From Iphinoe sp. HA4291-MV1 (lineage in GTDB: Bacteria; Cyanobacteriota; Cyanobacteriia; Cyanobacteriales; Nostocaceae), in assembly GCA_019359415.1 (NCBI GenBank), contig JAHHHH010000020.1:24893-88892 (forward strand): a stretch of DNA of 64,000 nucleotides, given 5' to 3'. A program made the translations under genes and the position numbers. Position 1 is the stretch's first letter, and the number at the start of each line of letters is the position of its first letter. Positions 9,649-15,939 of the stretch are shown here, one piece after another. The notes beneath the pieces are model-generated. The model worked only from the letters and a program-made list of their open reading frames with translations, was not told the DNA's origin and made no database searches.

Positions 9649-10635
9649 TCACTCAGTTGCGATATCTTCTGCAATAGTCTTCATCTCTGCCTTATCAGAT
9701 CCCCTACCGGATTTCGCGAGATATATACCAACCAAAACTACGAAAAAAGCCAACAAGTTAAACAGACTTAAGTGTTCAGCAAAGATGACCCAGGCAAGAA
9801 TTGTAGTAATAATCGGCTCAAGTAGAAGGAACAGAGAAGCAAACCCTGAGGAGAACTGCTTGAGGCTATAAGCGAGAATCCCCGAACCGATCACTTGGCA
9901 GAAAAGAGCTAGGCAAAACACTGGTAACCATCCCTCCACCGAAGAAGGGAAAAGTCGCTCTTCAGTGAATGCAGCGACTGGAAACGTCAAAAAACTTCTG
10001 ATCAAACAAGACCACAGTAGTATGCTTGTGGTGGAAAACTTGACTCTCAGTTTTTCTGCCGCTAGCAGACCCCCCGCATAGAATACAGCAGAAAGTAAAG
10101 CCAAAGCATCACCGATAAGTTGATCAGCAGCGATTTGCGAATCTTGAATGCCAATGGCGATCGCTCCCCCTATGGCTAGAAGCATACCCATGAGAAATCT
10201 GCGATCAAAGTAGTGACCCAACAGCACCCACCCCCCCAGAGTGGCGAAAATTGGGGTCAAATTATGCAGTAAATTCGAGTTAGCAACGTTAGTTTGAGTC
10301 AGAGACCAAGCCCAGGAAATATGAGACATGGGAATTACAGTACTCCATACTAGCAACATCACTAGATCGCGAATTGTGTAATTCTGCTTTTGCGGGGGGG
10401 AGTCTCGGGACAGTCGAGAACCCATAGCCCTGATACCCCTCCACAATCCAAGGATGACAGTAGCTATCCAAAAGCGATTGAAAACTGTGGCATTAGGACC
10501 GATATACTGTTCGCTTAATTTGATAAAGATTGCTGCTAGGGACAGGGTAAATACCCCTATGATTAATAAGGTAAGCAGCATCAGAGTTGATAATGAATCT
10601 GTTTGTTGCTGTGGCGCTTCTAGTGTATTAGTCAT
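9649..10635 (-). CDS. EamA/DMT-family transporter (exporter of small metabolites)
   Basis: About 328 residues with ten predicted membrane helices and two EamA repeats: one from FTLSLAAIFIKLSEQYIG to GGAIAIGIQD, the second from LIGDALALLSAVFYAGGLLA to FFVVLVGIYLAKSG. This family exports amino acids, purines and other small molecules. The ATG at 10635 is chosen; a TTG at 10695 would add 20 residues with no helix. No strong ribosome site is seen for either. It lies 192 bases after the M20 amidohydrolase gene on the same strand and may belong to the block that holds the halogenase-type enzymes, as a product exporter. That link is inference from position. Confidence 0.87.
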   Translation of the reverse strand: MTNTLEAPQQQTDSLSTLMLLTLLIIGVFTLSLAAIFIKLSEQYIGPNATVFNRFWIATVILGLWRGIRAMGSRLSRDSPPQKQNYTIRDLVMLLVWSTVIPMSHISWAWSLTQTNVANSNLLHNLTPIFATLGGWVLLGHYFDRRFLMGMLLAIGGAIAIGIQDSQIAADQLIGDALALLSAVFYAGGLLAAEKLRVKFSTTSILLWSCLIRSFLTFPVAAFTEERLFPSSVEGWLPVFCLALFCQVIGSGILAYSLKQFSSGFASLFLLLEPIITTILAWVIFAEHLSLFNLLAFFVVLVGIYLAKSGRGSDKAEMKTIAEDIATE

Positions 10636-10827
10636 ATTTGTTGTGTTGCAAAAACTTTTTGAGAACAGCCGTGGAATAATGTAGCACTTTGTCAATGAGT
10701 AAGAAATCTATTAATAGAGTTACCCGAAAGTTTAAGCAACAAATGAGAAAATTATGATCTGAGTTTAAAGACTCAAAATTCTTAGAAATGGTGTATTAAG
10801 AAACACATCCATAAATTCATCCATAAA

Positions 10828-12012
10828 TTAAATATGTTTGCCCTGAAAGTACTGACAAACGCTATAAGCTAAGGTCATAACACCTGCTAGAATTGAGGTC
10901 TCATCAACATCAAACTTTGGGTGATGCAAAGGATAATTATATTTGTCTTTGTATCCAACTCCCAAGCGGAACATAGCACCGGGGACATAGTTGAGATACT
11001 CAGCAAAATCCTCTGAACCTAACGAGGGATCTGGCAAAACTTGAACATAATCATTTCCTAATGCCTCAGTGGCTGCTCTCTCTAGCAATTGAGTCAGTTC
11101 TGGATAATTGACAACTGAAGGCATTGAGTGATGATAGTGTAATTCATACTCAGCTCCATAAGCATGGCAAACTCCAGCGACAACTTGCTCAACCCATTCT
11201 GCTAACCTAGCCCGTACCTCTGGATGGAGAGTACGTGCTGTCCCTACCAACTTAACTCTGTCTGCAATTGTATTAGAGTTATATCCACCACGGATTTTCC
11301 CAATTGTGAGAACTACCGGACGTTGTGGATCCTGCATCCGACTAATTGCTTGCTGAAGGCTAATGATAACTTGGGACGCTACCCAGATAGCATCTACCCC
11401 CTGTTTGGGATTACCCGCATCGGCTGCTTGACCTATAATTGTGATTTCCACACTATCCAACGATGCTGTCAGAGAGCCATATCTGATGCCAACGGAACCA
11501 GCGGGGATTGTCGGAAATACGTGCAGACTAAGGATGGCGGAGACATTTTCTAAAGCCTTATTTTTAATCATCCACATAGCCCCTTGACCAATTTCCTCCG
11601 CTGGCTGAAATATAAAGCGAACATTGCCTGGTATCTGCTCTTTGAGATGAGATAGTACCATAGCCGTGCCCAAGCCAACAGTAGTATGAACATCGTGACC
11701 GCAAGCGTGCATCACTCCCGGAACTTTTGAAGCAAACTCAAGACCAGTTTGCTCGTGAATCGGTAAGGCATCCATATCGACGCGAATAGCTAGCTGTCGG
11801 CTGTCTGTTCCTTGACCTTGTAGTTCTCCGAAAAGACCTGTTTTTCCGACGTTCTCTTGCACGTGCAGCTCGTAAGAACTGAGAACTCCTGCGACAAAAA
11901 TGGCTGTTAGGTGTTCCTGTCCACTCAATTCTGGATGGCTGTGGAGATGTCGCCGAATTTCCTTCAGGCGAGGCATAAGTTCTTCAGCGATTTGTTTAAT
12001 TTCAGTTAGCAC
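10828..12012 (-). CDS. M20-family metallo-amidohydrolase
   Basis: A 394-residue M20D enzyme (N-acyl-L-amino-acid amidohydrolase / hippurate hydrolase / IAA-amino-acid hydrolase group). Metal-site motifs are present: HLHSHPELSGQE near the start, the ligand motif ACGHDVHTT, PAEEIGQGA with the general-base glutamate pair, and LHHPKFDVDE near the end. It would release free amino acids from N-acyl or related amides in the cytoplasm. The GTG start overlaps the stop of the GNAT gene by one base (TAGTG), so the two are translationally coupled. In this position it could remove a protecting acyl or glutamyl group from a toxic amino acid; this is a hypothesis, as the family is also a common housekeeping one. 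Confidence 0.9.
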   Translation of the reverse strand: MLTEIKQIAEELMPRLKEIRRHLHSHPELSGQEHLTAIFVAGVLSSYELHVQENVGKTGLFGELQGQGTDSRQLAIRVDMDALPIHEQTGLEFASKVPGVMHACGHDVHTTVGLGTAMVLSHLKEQIPGNVRFIFQPAEEIGQGAMWMIKNKALENVSAILSLHVFPTIPAGSVGIRYGSLTASLDSVEITIIGQAADAGNPKQGVDAIWVASQVIISLQQAISRMQDPQRPVVLTIGKIRGGYNSNTIADRVKLVGTARTLHPEVRARLAEWVEQVVAGVCHAYGAEYELHYHHSMPSVVNYPELTQLLERAATEALGNDYVQVLPDPSLGSEDFAEYLNYVPGAMFRLGVGYKDKYNYPLHHPKFDVDETSILAGVMTLAYSVCQYFQGKHI

Positions 12013-12491
12013 TATTGTAATCCCAACTCGAGTTCCTCGTATATCATATAGCCAGTGTCTTTCATACCTAAAGCTTTATAAGTTTTTTGTGCAACAGTAT
12101 TTTGATGATCCACATAAAGTCTAAAACCACAGATTCTTAGTTCATTTTGTTCATTTCTCGCTTTTTCTTTCACAAACTCGTAGAGTTTTCTATAAATCCC
12201 TTGACGACGAAACTTTGGGTGAACATAGACACTTTGTATCCACCAAAATCTCCCATTTCGCCAGTCGCTCCACTCTGTCGTCACCATCAGAGAAGCAGCG
12301 ACTTTATCATTATTTTCTGCAACAACATAAAAACCAAAATCCGAATTTTTTAACAAAGTTTCTACACCAGCCGTGACAATCTCTAAAGAGAGGTCTTTAT
12401 CCTCGGTTTCACGTGCCATTGCTCGATTGAATTCAACTAATACATCTAAATCGTCAGTCTTTGCTAAACGAATTAACAACTTGTTTTCCAC
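12012..12491 (-). CDS. GNAT-family N-acetyltransferase
   Basis: A 159-residue protein with the GNAT fold: VVAENNDKVAASLMVTTEW strands, the acetyl-CoA loop HPKFRRQGIYRKLYEFV (the R/Q-x-x-G-x-G/A pattern) and GFRLYVDHQNTVAQKTYKALGM, the usual last strand and helix, then MKDTGYMIYEEL. The substrate is unknown. GTG start with GAGGAAA site. It is the first gene of a leftward operon followed by the M20 amidohydrolase (one-base overlap) and the EamA exporter. Acetyltransferase plus deacylase plus exporter is a common protection set for toxic amino acids, which fits the neighbouring halogenase-type genes but is not proved. Confidence 0.88.
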   Translation of the reverse strand: MENKLLIRLAKTDDLDVLVEFNRAMARETEDKDLSLEIVTAGVETLLKNSDFGFYVVAENNDKVAASLMVTTEWSDWRNGRFWWIQSVYVHPKFRRQGIYRKLYEFVKEKARNEQNELRICGFRLYVDHQNTVAQKTYKALGMKDTGYMIYEELELGLQ

Positions 12492-12834
12492 CTATTTTCC
12501 TCTATATAATTATGAATTGAGAAGAAACCAAGACCAAAAATGTATTCAACTAAAAAATAAGCATTGTATCTTAAAATTCTCAATTTATGAGCTAAGTTAC
12601 TGGCTTAAGAATGTGTTTTATTGTATCATAACTCAAATGAATATTTTCTAATTATATTAGTTTCAAAGTTTTCATTATCTAATTAATTAAATAACTATAT
12701 ACTTTTGTAAATATATCTGTTTTCGTATATATGAAATAAATAAAATCTATAAAGTTATTAAGCTAGACGACTTGGGTCAAATAGAGAAATCATCAAAGTA
12801 GAATTTTCAGTCAATCATTTAGCTATCATAGATT
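12492..12834. other. AT-rich divergent intergenic region
   Basis: No convincing gene in this AT-rich stretch between the leftward GNAT operon and the rightward ligase gene. It must hold both promoters; I could not fix a -10/-35 pair with confidence. Confidence 0.5.
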
Positions 12835-12854
12835 TGACTTAGGAGTTAAAGTCA
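12835..12854. promoter_or_regulatory. Inverted repeat TGACTT-N8-AAGTCA upstream of the GCS2 ligase
   Basis: A perfect 6-bp inverted repeat with an 8-base spacer, ending 23 bases before the GTG start of the ligase gene, just upstream of its ribosome site. Its place suggests an operator, though an arm of six can arise by chance. Confidence 0.35.
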
Positions 12855-12877
12855 TTTGAGCACAAAAGGAGTTAGTT

Positions 12878-14227
12878 GTGAAAAATAAACCATTGCTCAC
12901 TTATCAAGATCTTCTATATTTCTTTCTTAAAAACGAAGCAGTTACTGAGAAAATAGGAATGGAGGTGGAATTAGGTGTAGTCGATCCCAACACGGGAATA
13001 TCCCTACCTTACAAGGGAACCAATGGAGCTCGAGCCATACTTGAAGTTTTGATGAAAACTGATAACTGGACTCCCGTTTATGAAGAAAATCTTCTTCTCG
13101 GTGTTGTACGAGCCGATGGATGTCAAGTAACCTTAGAACCTGGAGGACAAATCGAATATTCATCTCCTCCAGCCAAGGATTTAGTAGAACTTGTCCAGAA
13201 GATGCGTCAAGTCGTTTTGAGCATTGCAGAGGTGGCGCGAGGATTAGGATCTGCCTTGATAGCGGGTAGTATGCTGCCGTTCGATAAACCCGAAGATGCC
13301 AAATGGGCACCGAAGCCACGATTTCAAATGACACTGGATTATTTAGCCAGTTTGGGAATCGATTCGCTGGGTTGGTGTACAATGGCACGAACATTGTCTA
13401 CACAAGTCACCTTTGATTACCTGTCTGAAGATGACATGAATCGAAAGGTGCGAGTTCTTGTAGCAGCAGCGCCTGTGTCTTGTGCTCTTTTCGCTAACTC
13501 TCCGATCGAGGGGGGAGTGCTTGACGGTGTTCTCTCGCATCGAGGAAAGTACTGGCTGAGATTCGATCCAGCACGCTGCGGTTGTATTCCTCCAGCTTTG
13601 AGTGGTTCGATGACTTTCAATGACTATATCCAATGGGCGATGGAAATTCCGATGATTGCTTCTATGGTTAACGGAGTTTGTCAACCGATGTATGGACGCC
13701 CCTTTTCTTCAGTATTAAATAGTGGCTTTGATGATGGAAGCCAACCGACATTTGATAACTGGCGTGCTCACTTCTCATCTATTTACACTGATATTCGCTT
13801 GCGCGATACTATTGAAGTTCGTGCGATGGATGGACTAGCTTTTGAACACATACCCTCTGCCTGTGCTTTTTGGACTGGACTGGCTTATCATCAACCCTCT
13901 ATTGAATCCTTGTGGAAACTATTAGAAAATCGAACGCTTGAAGACTATCAAACAGCACAAGCTGAAGTTTGCGTTAAAGGATTAAAAGCAAGGTATGGTG
14001 AAGACTCGGTTCAAGACTTAGCGATAGAAATGGTGAAGCTTGCAAAACTTGGGCTAGAAGCACGAGTGAATGCACAGCTTGAACATCCAGAAGTCTTAAG
14101 TTACCTTGAGCCTCTAGAAGAAGTTGCTTTTTCCGGTCAAACTTTTGCAGAACGTCTGATTGAGAAGTGGAAAGGTGAGTTGCAATTTTCTCGCGATCGC
14201 TATGTAGAAGCTTATCGAATCAATTAG
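12878..14227 (+). CDS. GCS2-family glutamate-cysteine ligase-like gamma-glutamyl ligase
   Basis: A 449-residue ATP-dependent carboxylate-amine ligase of the GCS2 group (plant-type GshA / EgtA). Visible motifs: IGMEVELGVVD for the glutamate and metal site, GCQVTLEPGGQIEYSSPP, LSTQVTFDYLSEDDMNRK, FANSPIEGG and the Mg/ATP-side segment TIEVRAMDGLAFEHIPSA. The family joins the gamma-carboxyl of glutamate to an amino acid. It does not look like the usual cyanobacterial GshA, so a specialised role is likely. It faces the BesC-like and BesD-like genes; in the bes pathway of Streptomyces cattleya the BesA step is also a gamma-glutamyl ligation. The GTG start is set by AAAGGAG 7 bases upstream. The alternative is thiol synthesis such as ergothioneine precursor formation, but no egt genes are near. 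Confidence 0.85.
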   Translation: MKNKPLLTYQDLLYFFLKNEAVTEKIGMEVELGVVDPNTGISLPYKGTNGARAILEVLMKTDNWTPVYEENLLLGVVRADGCQVTLEPGGQIEYSSPPAKDLVELVQKMRQVVLSIAEVARGLGSALIAGSMLPFDKPEDAKWAPKPRFQMTLDYLASLGIDSLGWCTMARTLSTQVTFDYLSEDDMNRKVRVLVAAAPVSCALFANSPIEGGVLDGVLSHRGKYWLRFDPARCGCIPPALSGSMTFNDYIQWAMEIPMIASMVNGVCQPMYGRPFSSVLNSGFDDGSQPTFDNWRAHFSSIYTDIRLRDTIEVRAMDGLAFEHIPSACAFWTGLAYHQPSIESLWKLLENRTLEDYQTAQAEVCVKGLKARYGEDSVQDLAIEMVKLAKLGLEARVNAQLEHPEVLSYLEPLEEVAFSGQTFAERLIEKWKGELQFSRDRYVEAYRIN

Positions 14228-14239
14228 GACTTATTTTCA

Positions 14240-14336
14240 AGAAGTGAGCAGACAGCCCTAAAATATGCATAACATTGCAAAGATGCTTGAGTGCTTCTTT
14301 TATGTCTTTTGGGGCTAACTGCTCATCCCGACTTCT
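14240..14336. terminator. Long imperfect hairpin between convergent genes
   Basis: The left arm AGAAGTGAGCAG..AGCCCTAAAA pairs with the right arm TTTTGGGGCTAACTGCTCATC..ACTTCT. It lies between the stops of the rightward ligase gene and the leftward diiron-oxidase gene and probably ends both transcripts. Confidence 0.6.
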
Positions 14337-14352
14337 TTAACTGTTTTAAAAC

Positions 14353-15105
14353 CTATGTTTGATTGCCTAAAAGAAGCGCCTCAACACCATCCCAATAAGT
14401 TGCTACAAGTTCTAGGAATCCATTCATCCCTTTCTCAAATAACTCTCTGGTATCCTGTTCACTAATGTAAGGAGAGATAGCATTGAAAACGTTGTTGCTG
14501 TGTCCCACTTCCACATTGATATGAATCAGCCAGAAATTCCTGAGCTTCTTATCATACTCCTGGTTCTCTAGCCCATCGTTTAACTTAGAAACCATCGTAG
14601 CAGACATAGTTTCATCAGCATACAAGGCTCCCAAACATTTCTCAATCGGCGGCTCAGTGTAAAGCTTCATAATACCTTGGTTGAGTGCCGTTGTGGTGGG
14701 CAAACATTTGTAATTCTCAAACTCTTCGTTGGTAATCCCAATTTGGTGTAGAAAATCCCTGTAAATCATTGAATGAGTCACCTTGCTCCCAACTTCATCA
14801 ATGACATTGAGGATCACTTCCCGCAGGATATTCTCATCTCTAGTATGTAAAGCCATACCAGTGATATAAAAAGGAAGATACTGGAAGAAGTAGAAACACT
14901 CTAGGAAAAGCTTCTTTTCTTGTTCTTTGGTTAGCTTGTTCTTTCTGTAGTAGTTAAGAAAAGGATGCTCTACTGCTCGGTGAGCCAAAATGTATTCAAT
15001 TTGCTCATCAAGATACTTTTTAGTCTCTTGATTATCCAGCTTGACTCGTTTGCGAATATTGGGATCTTCTACTTCTTCAAATCGCTTAATTGTTGTAGAT
15101 GTCAT
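14353..15105 (-). CDS. Heme-oxygenase-like diiron oxidase (BesC-like)
   Basis: A 250-residue all-helical protein of the HDO superfamily (BesC, SznF, UndA, CADD). The full metal-ligand pattern is present: Glu104-x6-His111 (DEVGSKVTH), Glu165 (ALYADETM) and His195-x3-Glu199-x2-His202 (HINVEVGH); Glu69 is a further candidate. The E-x6-H spacing matches CADD, and the 30-residue step from Glu165 to His195 matches SznF as I remember it. BesC cleaves 4-chlorolysine with O2 to 4-chloroallylglycine, formaldehyde and ammonia. The gene lies 63 bases after the halogenase-like gene in one operon. The start at 15105 has AAGGAG 8 bases upstream; a longer form from 15144 is less likely. Another oxidative activity on a different amine is possible. 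Confidence 0.83.
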   Translation of the reverse strand: MTSTTIKRFEEVEDPNIRKRVKLDNQETKKYLDEQIEYILAHRAVEHPFLNYYRKNKLTKEQEKKLFLECFYFFQYLPFYITGMALHTRDENILREVILNVIDEVGSKVTHSMIYRDFLHQIGITNEEFENYKCLPTTTALNQGIMKLYTEPPIEKCLGALYADETMSATMVSKLNDGLENQEYDKKLRNFWLIHINVEVGHSNNVFNAISPYISEQDTRELFEKGMNGFLELVATYWDGVEALLLGNQT

Positions 15106-15168
15106 TTGCAAACTCCTTTTCAGCGACGAACTCTTATGAGACACATCTCAAATGAAACTGGAGTAGCT

Positions 15169-15939
15169 TCAGCTATAAACCCCAGCTTCTACTTCTTTTT
15201 CAGCCCACCATCTATCGTTGGTGATCATTTGCTTCTTCAGATCGTCTTCACATCCCCAAGTCATATTAATCATGATTCTGATTGCATCGTGATTCAGAGG
15301 AACTGTGCGATGGAGAGTCGTATCTGCTTTTAAAAAGTAGATGTCGCCACTCACAAAACCATAAGTTTTAATGAGATTTTGACATAGATACTCGTGGATT
15401 TTTGGATTAGATTTGTCCCAATTGGTGTGAGGAACACATTGAAGCATACCACCATATTCTGTTGGCGGTGTTTCCAAAATCCAAATTAAAGCAAAACGAT
15501 AATCTCCCCAGTGCCATCCATGAGTATCACCACTTTTTTCCTGTCTAGTAATGAGAAATTCTTCATCCTTTGAAGGACATGGCAAAAGGGGTTCACCGGC
15601 AAGAGCTTCGAGAAAGCTCAACAAAGCTTTGGAACGGTATATTGTGTTAATAAATTCACTGTTAGCAGCAATCGTTTCACTGGTCACAACGCTCATCTTT
15701 CTTGGAGTATTTCCTGTTGTTGCCAGTTTGAGATCTCTGCGTTCTGCATAGAGTTCCAAAAGTCTTAACGCTTCTTCTTTCATAGATTTTCGGATTTCCA
15801 AAGGCATAACCTCTGGAATCTTGATCACCCCCTCTCTCTTAAATTGATTAGAAAGAAAAGGAAGAGTCTTTTTAGAGTATTTCTCGACAAGATTAGAGCT
15901 AATCTTTTCTTCAGTTTGAGATGAGATAGACAGAACCAT
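15169..15939 (-). CDS. 2OG/Fe(II) radical halogenase of the BesD lysine-halogenase type
   Basis: A 256-residue cupin-fold 2-oxoglutarate/iron enzyme. The metal site reads His143-Trp-Gly145 (GWHWGDY) with distal His210 (TTLHRTVPL): glycine replaces the carboxylate ligand of hydroxylases, the mark of iron halogenases, where chloride binds iron. Residues I recall as important in BesD (R74, E120, H134, H137, G139, D140, H204, N219, T221, W238, W239) all have equivalents here at a constant offset of six: R80, E126, H140, H143, G145, D146, H210, N225, T227, W244, W245. This predicts chlorination of free L-lysine or a close analogue. It is first in an operon with the BesC-like gene. The numbers for BesD are from memory and should be aligned. 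If lysine is not the substrate, another amino acid is likely. Confidence 0.85.
   Translation of the reverse strand: MVLSISSQTEEKISSNLVEKYSKKTLPFLSNQFKREGVIKIPEVMPLEIRKSMKEEALRLLELYAERRDLKLATTGNTPRKMSVVTSETIAANSEFINTIYRSKALLSFLEALAGEPLLPCPSKDEEFLITRQEKSGDTHGWHWGDYRFALIWILETPPTEYGGMLQCVPHTNWDKSNPKIHEYLCQNLIKTYGFVSGDIYFLKADTTLHRTVPLNHDAIRIMINMTWGCEDDLKKQMITNDRWWAEKEVEAGVYS

Follow-up and report, generated by a model that had tools for sequence, protein, structure and literature searches.

The window analysed here is a stretch of 64,000 nucleotides (nt) from the cyanobacterium Iphinoe sp. HA4291-MV1 (Nostocaceae; assembly GCA_019359415.1, contig JAHHHH010000020.1, positions 24,893 to 88,892), and between its positions 9649 and 15939 lie six genes whose open reading frames are all intact. 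Two of them, on the reverse strand, encode a BesD-like Fe/2-oxoglutarate halogenase of 256 amino acids (aa; 15169..15939) and a BesC-like haem-oxygenase-like diiron oxidase (HDO) of 250 aa (14353..15105). They are met by a forward-strand gene for a GCS2 carboxylate-amine ligase (12878..14227), beyond which the reverse strand carries genes for a GNAT acetyltransferase, an M20 amidohydrolase and an EamA exporter. The BesD-BesC route has been characterised in Streptomyces. A first-pass annotation had proposed a pathway of this type from the halogenase, oxidase and ligase genes alone; all three are open and adjacent, with the coordinates and strands given there, and the ligase gene (+) indeed converges on the halogenase/oxidase run (besC, −). 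Production of a chlorinated amino acid by this strain, through a modified form of the known pathway, is probable.

The identity of the halogenase is well supported. The protein matches Pfam HalD (313 bits) as well as the NCBIfam model of BesD (NF042920), and the best solved structure for it is BesD itself (6NIE, E 1e-91), which it equals at 134 of 231 aligned residues (58%). It bears an HxG motif (HWG) in which G145 takes the place of a carboxylate ligand, and its iron histidines are H143 and H210. In a 2026 computational study (PMC13244439), the iron of 6NIE is bound by H140 and H207, the lysine amine forms salt bridges with E123, D143 and D239, and the lysine carboxylate is contacted by R77, H137 and W241; the same study names D142G, N149I and V223N as substitutions with which a related lysine hydroxylase is engineered in the direction of halogenation. 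When the corresponding BesD residues (G142, I149 and N222) are taken as the halogenase-selecting positions, all 11 iron, lysine-binding and selectivity positions compiled from that study are identical in the window protein, and they are kept in 11/11 aligned BesD rows (the window and ten others; the BesD of G848, found by tblastn only, was left out of the alignment and the tree). The first-pass assignment to the BesD type therefore stands, and the protein is very probably a lysine 4-chlorinase. A hydroxylase reading is disfavoured by the HxG motif and the two other selectivity positions.

Relatives of the halogenase were sought in 210 genomes of the family, as were those of an amidinotransferase discussed below, and the searches for BesC and GCS2 covered 218. 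Thirteen of the 210 have a BesD-family match at E<=1e-20, and the five above 330 bits coincide with the five genomes that hold BesC. In the other eight there is no strong BesC match; the motif was read in five of them (L112-L116) and is HxD, the hydroxylase pattern, in all five. Among plasmid records, BesD relatives are present in 36, the best being that of S. cattleya (58%), and a count of organism names found no cyanobacterial name among these 36. The BesD tree unites all six cyanobacterial proteins (100/99) and puts the window protein beside that of a second locus in its own genome (contig C138) with modest support (81/83); the end branch of the window protein, 0.3, carries a long-branch flag, which leaves the precise placement uncertain.

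The neighbouring oxidase was first read as 14353-15144(−), with a GTG start and 263 aa. An ATG at 15105 is preceded by AGGAG and agrees with the start of cyanobacterial BesC homologues, so that it is the likelier start and the GTG at 15144 is probably wrong. With this start the gap between besD and besC is 63 nt, which is consistent with a predicted besD-besC operon. The oxidase matches the NCBIfam BesC model (NF042919), and its best solved structure is BesC 7TWA (E 9e-91; 142 of 238 aligned columns identical, 60%). The HDO metal ligands E117, H124, E178, H208, E212 and H215 (numbering of the 263-aa reading) are kept, as are the six E-H-E-H-E-H ligands in 12/12 BesC rows. Thus the BesC-type diiron oxidase of the first-pass annotation is also confirmed, and the profile and sequence comparisons that it had suggested place the two proteins nearest to the BesD and BesC families. 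According to PMC13108848, BesC breaks the C4-C5 bond of 4-chlorolysine, with 4-chloroallylglycine, ammonia and formaldehyde as products. Given the sequences of both proteins, their residues and their pairing, the route through the window pair is expected to pass by way of 4-chlorolysine and 4-chloroallylglycine.

Strong BesC matches are rare. At E<=1e-30 they occur in 5/218 genomes of the family and in 2/386 genomes sampled across the phylum, the strain's own included in both counts, and an HxG BesD adjoins BesC at 6/6 loci of the family. As far as besD and besC are concerned, this rarity and adjacency support the earlier judgement that the gene set is unlikely to have arisen by chance. Among 100 relatives, 19 match the BesC model at E<=0.001; three genomes including the strain's own match strongly and the rest reach at most 48 bits. 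A scan of genome contigs added two further loci, one in Actinomadura and one in a gammaproteobacterial metagenome-assembled genome. The latter has adjacent besD and besC (L027, 9168-10696), and BesA and BesB were not found in its 20.7 kb stretch.

The sixth family locus lies in the strain's own genome, where a second besD-besC pair (C138:82129-83906; L029, 14130-15907) is accompanied by amidinotransferase, EamA and methyltransferase genes and has an oxidase that has diverged from the BesC consensus. Together with the single pairs of G007, G030, G154 and G469 it forms one clade of five; because the proteins of G154 and G469 are identical and the strain (G000) and G007 belong to one genus, this clade amounts to three or four lineages. 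Its five halogenases keep the same 11 key positions as the window protein. The oxidases were compared at the 123 columns that do not vary among the six non-cyanobacterial BesC rows. Of these, the window oxidase departs at 17 (7 alone and 10 with the divergent clade), and the other five cyanobacterial oxidases depart together at 29 (19 in the clade only and 10 shared with the window). Relative to the window protein, the changes of the clade include L90->E, S125->E (adjoining ligand H124), F131->Q, K187->Q and F204->H. In the same comparison for BesD, with 111 fixed columns, the window alone departs at 1, the other cyanobacterial clade alone at 0 and both together at 11. These counts indicate that, at the fixed columns, the oxidase has changed in one cyanobacterial type, and that the halogenase shows clade-wide change in neither apart from the shared columns. 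The BesC tree makes the window protein the sister (100/99) of the five remaining cyanobacterial proteins; its end branch measures 0.094, and the stem leading to those five 0.52.

These figures bear on a further explanation, in which the 4-chlorolysine made by the pair is put to a different use and the oxidase has another activity, breaking a different bond or turning plain lysine into allylglycine. In its favour, the window oxidase is only about 60% identical to BesC, lysine, and not 4-chlorolysine alone, is broken up by BesC (PMC10187165), and HDO enzymes with similar ligands carry out different chemistry (PMC13108848). However, the window oxidase departs alone at only 7 of the 123 fixed columns, compared with 19 for the divergent clade, and its end branch is short. 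We regard this explanation as improbable and retain cleavage of 4-chlorolysine as the expected step.

The five divergent pairs are associated with an arginine amidinotransferase gene, a relative of AGAT, HsvA and SxtG, which lies near the pair or, in G007 and G030, on another contig. Among the 210 genomes, homologues of at least 80% identity to it are confined to these five, the next best being 57%. In all, 33 genomes hold amidinotransferases, including 28 at 57% or below that were treated as other subfamilies; the strain itself also carries a copy of another subfamily (C106, 47%). An EamA gene adjoins the amidinotransferase in 5/5 genomes. Joint inheritance could explain part of this pattern. 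Two genomes of this type also have an agmatinase-family gene no more than about 8 kb away from the pair, namely G007 (L031, 5464-6360; 187.6 bits) and, with a 79% identical relative, G030 (L032, 13916-14806).

The third gene of the first-pass annotation, at 12878, encodes a GCS2-family protein as claimed (449 aa; Pfam GCS2, 126 bits). It scores 253.9 bits with the plant glutamate-cysteine ligase family (cut-off 463) and 101.5 with EgtA (cut-off 371), and the solved structures nearest to it are the plant glutamate-cysteine ligases 6GMO and 2GWC, matched over nearly their full length. The annotation had likened it to BesA. The BesA family is NF042917, which S. cattleya BesA matches with 881.6 bits and Actinomadura BesA with 655.2, and this model is absent among the profile matches of the window ligase. 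As regards homology the parallel therefore fails, the GCS2 protein being ruled out as a BesA homologue; what remains is a possible gamma-glutamyl cap by analogy with BesA. NCBIfam labels BesA as propargylglycine ligase, i.e. the step after BesB. No match to BesB was found in the strain's own genome, the assembly of which is 95% complete, with a model that weakly matches 13/14 control genomes; an alkyne product is accordingly disfavoured. A tblastn search detected both BesB and BesA at 5/5 actinobacterial bes loci, and neither of them around the six cyanobacterial pairs or in the gammaproteobacterial stretch. The description of the locus as Bes-like thus holds for BesD and BesC, and that of a full Bes pathway does not, given that the locus has no BesA homologue and the genome no BesB match. 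A weak BesA-family protein is encoded elsewhere in the genome (C138:46952-48268; 161.7 bits, cut-off 750), at a distance of some 34 kb from the besD-besC pair of C138; the BesA model also matches 1/14 control genomes (S. elongatus).

Full-length GCS2 genes are found in five of the nine family genomes with GCS2 matches (of 218), the window included. The GCS2 gene adjoins an EamA gene in G343, G504, G514 and G481, the last with a short gapped copy near a contig end, and does not do so in G458. The window EamA protein (9649..10695, −; homologues point to a start at about 10635) is 78, 70, 57 and 58% identical to the EamA proteins beside GCS2, and 50-53% identical to those beside the amidinotransferase. 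Since EamA adjoins GCS2 in four other genomes and the window protein is nearer to those, ligase and exporter seem to belong to a single module, which we read as a device for capping and exporting unusual amino acids that is here joined with besDC. In G343 (L051, 9213-12892), a genome without BesC, a gene for a TauD-type dioxygenase heads the run with EamA and GCS2, and this run may represent a further pathway to a capped amino acid. In G504 (L052) and G514 (L053), at most about 7 kb separate the EamA-GCS2 genes from genes for unknown proteins of 346-387 aa, 43-44% related to the product of the gene adjoining GCS2 in G458, and a thioesterase gene is present as well. Fragments of GCS2 are seen in G494 (L055), G507 (L056) and G506 (L057), and loss of the module may have been repeated among relatives.

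A different role for the ligase has to be weighed at this point, namely that BesD and BesC act as stated, that GCS2 adjoins them without a functional tie or serves thiol metabolism (gamma-glutamylcysteine, stress), and that the product is capped with an acetyl group by GNAT and M20 or not capped at all. This would fit the nearness of GCS2 to plant glutamate-cysteine ligases, its co-occurrence with BesC in the strain's own genome only, and the fact that GNAT, and not GCS2, is common to other pathway loci. On the other hand, the genome has a separate housekeeping GshA of cyanobacterial type (TIGR02048, 703.8 bits), so that GCS2 is not needed for glutathione and is ruled out as the sole glutathione enzyme, and the pairing of GCS2 with EamA in four other genomes, together with the closer kinship of the window EamA to those (57-78%, against 50-53%), also speaks against it. 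We consider this alternative rather unlikely, though the most serious of those raised, and favour the joint action of ligase and exporter on the product of BesD and BesC.

The two remaining genes lie between the ligase and the exporter. The GNAT acetyltransferase, identified by domain search (159 aa; 12012..12491, −), is proposed to serve N-acetyl capping or self-protection, and homologues 60-64% identical to it occur near the amidinotransferase in G030, G154 and G469. Its gene overlaps by 1 nt that of the M20 amidohydrolase of the N-acyl amino acid hydrolase type (10828..12012, −), a relative of which (36%) is found in the Actinomadura bes locus. EamA proteins are present in 2/5 actinobacterial bes loci (S. 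cattleya and Actinomadura).

Taken together, positions 9649 to 15939 have roughly an even chance of being a small cluster that produces a non-protein amino acid bearing chlorine, made by the BesD and BesC steps with the chlorine kept and then capped and exported. The BesD-like enzyme would chlorinate free L-lysine at C4, and the BesC-like oxidase would cut 4-chlorolysine between C4 and C5 into 4-chloroallylglycine, formaldehyde and ammonia. Without BesB, the chlorine would stay in the product; it would not be eliminated, no alkyne would form, and the chlorovinyl amino acid would be either the end point or the substrate of a cap. The alpha-amine could be capped with gamma-glutamate by GCS2 and/or with an acetyl group by GNAT, EamA would export the capped product, and the M20 enzyme may be able to take an acyl cap off. 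Amino acids of the allylglycine type inhibit enzymes that depend on pyridoxal phosphate, and capping might protect the cell from such an inhibitor. The sequences support the enzyme families, the catalytic and substrate-binding residues and the gene order; from these we infer that both reactions take place in this organism, as well as the order of the steps, the capping and the export.

Several points weigh against this proposal. The oxidase reaches 350.5 bits with NF042919 and the halogenase 342.8 with NF042920, short of the equivalog cut-offs of 500 and 450, and these cut-offs are exceeded by 0/218 and 0/210 genomes of the family, respectively. Actinomadura exceeds both (546.1 bits for BesC and 459.7 for BesD), and three actinobacterial loci with BesA and BesB are also under the BesC cut-off (452-454 bits). 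Moreover, the ten columns at which the window oxidase departs together with the divergent clade are otherwise fixed. GCS2 lies on the strand opposite to besDC, and co-transcription can therefore not be claimed; promoter and terminator scans gave nothing exceeding chance, with 13 promoter-like sites seen and 17.3 expected. Within the limits searched, BesC was not found in the eight other GCS2 genomes, nor GCS2 in the four other BesC genomes. The neighbourhood search suggested by the first-pass annotation thus recovered besD-besC pairs and no second full trio, and the link between GCS2 and besDC is drawn from one genome because they co-occur only there. Finally, the substrate of GCS2 is a prediction, and the product is predicted from the genes alone.

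Directly left of the cluster lies a cyanoexosortase-B associated gene (316.9 bits, cut-off 65) that is present in 8/8 genomes of the genus, the strain's own included. Both this gene and the GshA mark the host as a cyanobacterium. In the stretches compared from five other genomes of the genus, it is followed by polysaccharide genes in four, and the contig ends in the fifth (G007). On the cluster side, the window genes up to 29 kb were not found within about 11 kb in four genomes and within 2.7 kb, up to the contig end, in G003. As the flank is conserved and the next genes of the window are not found in the five stretches, the cluster begins at the point where synteny breaks down, a pattern that gain or loss of a block would be expected to leave. 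The locus might then be a decaying or silent import that yields no product, as the patchy distribution of BesC (5/218 and 2/386 genomes), the missing neighbours beside the genus-conserved flank gene and the GCS2 remnants in three relatives would allow. Yet none of the six reading frames is interrupted, and BesD and BesC retain the catalytic residues that were checked, which makes this very improbable in comparison with a working cluster.

Considering both types of loci jointly, we tentatively propose, at somewhat less than an even chance, that Nostocaceae-type cyanobacteria operate two diverged pathways to chloro-amino acids, both starting from one halogenation. The window locus would lead to gamma-glutamyl- and/or N-acetyl-4-chloroallylglycine, and C138 and its four relatives to an undescribed guanidino, chlorine-bearing amino acid by means of a re-tuned BesC with new acidic and polar residues and the arginine amidinotransferase; in both, a capping enzyme would replace BesB and BesA. 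If the window cluster acts as proposed, the BesD-BesC route extends to cyanobacteria, halted at the chlorinated stage with the chlorine kept in the product. Furthermore, two paralogous pairs in one genome represent a natural experiment with one halogenase type and two oxidase types, and the 19 clade-specific changes narrow the search for residues with a possible role in directing diiron C-C cleavage. In the available text of the open-licence literature searched, which omits most subscription papers, no description of this gene set in cyanobacteria or Nostoc was found.

The locus can be compared with several known systems. The ligase resembles plant-type glutamate-cysteine ligases and EgtA in its GCS2 family and in the near full-length match to 6GMO and 2GWC; it differs in scoring below both equivalog cut-offs, in having relatives paired with EamA and in residing in a genome with its own GshA. 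The EamA-GCS2 modules of G343, G504 and G514 share with the window an EamA and a GCS2 that are 57-79% identical, whereas those genomes are without BesC and G343 has a TauD-type dioxygenase. The bes cluster for beta-ethynylserine in Streptomyces (Streptantibioticus) cattleya and Actinomadura sp. KC06 has the same besD-besC order, a convergent ligase gene and EamA, and the Actinomadura locus additionally has an M20 hydrolase; there, however, besB follows besC, while the window locus is without BesB and BesA and has GCS2 and GNAT instead. Further counterparts are the second-type pairs of C138, G007, G030, G154 and G469, which have besD-besC, the same 11 halogenase positions and EamA (in G007 and G030 on another contig), and, in three of the four other genomes (G030, G154 and G469), a GNAT related to that of the window; in contrast to the window, their oxidase departs at 19 otherwise fixed columns and an amidinotransferase replaces GCS2.

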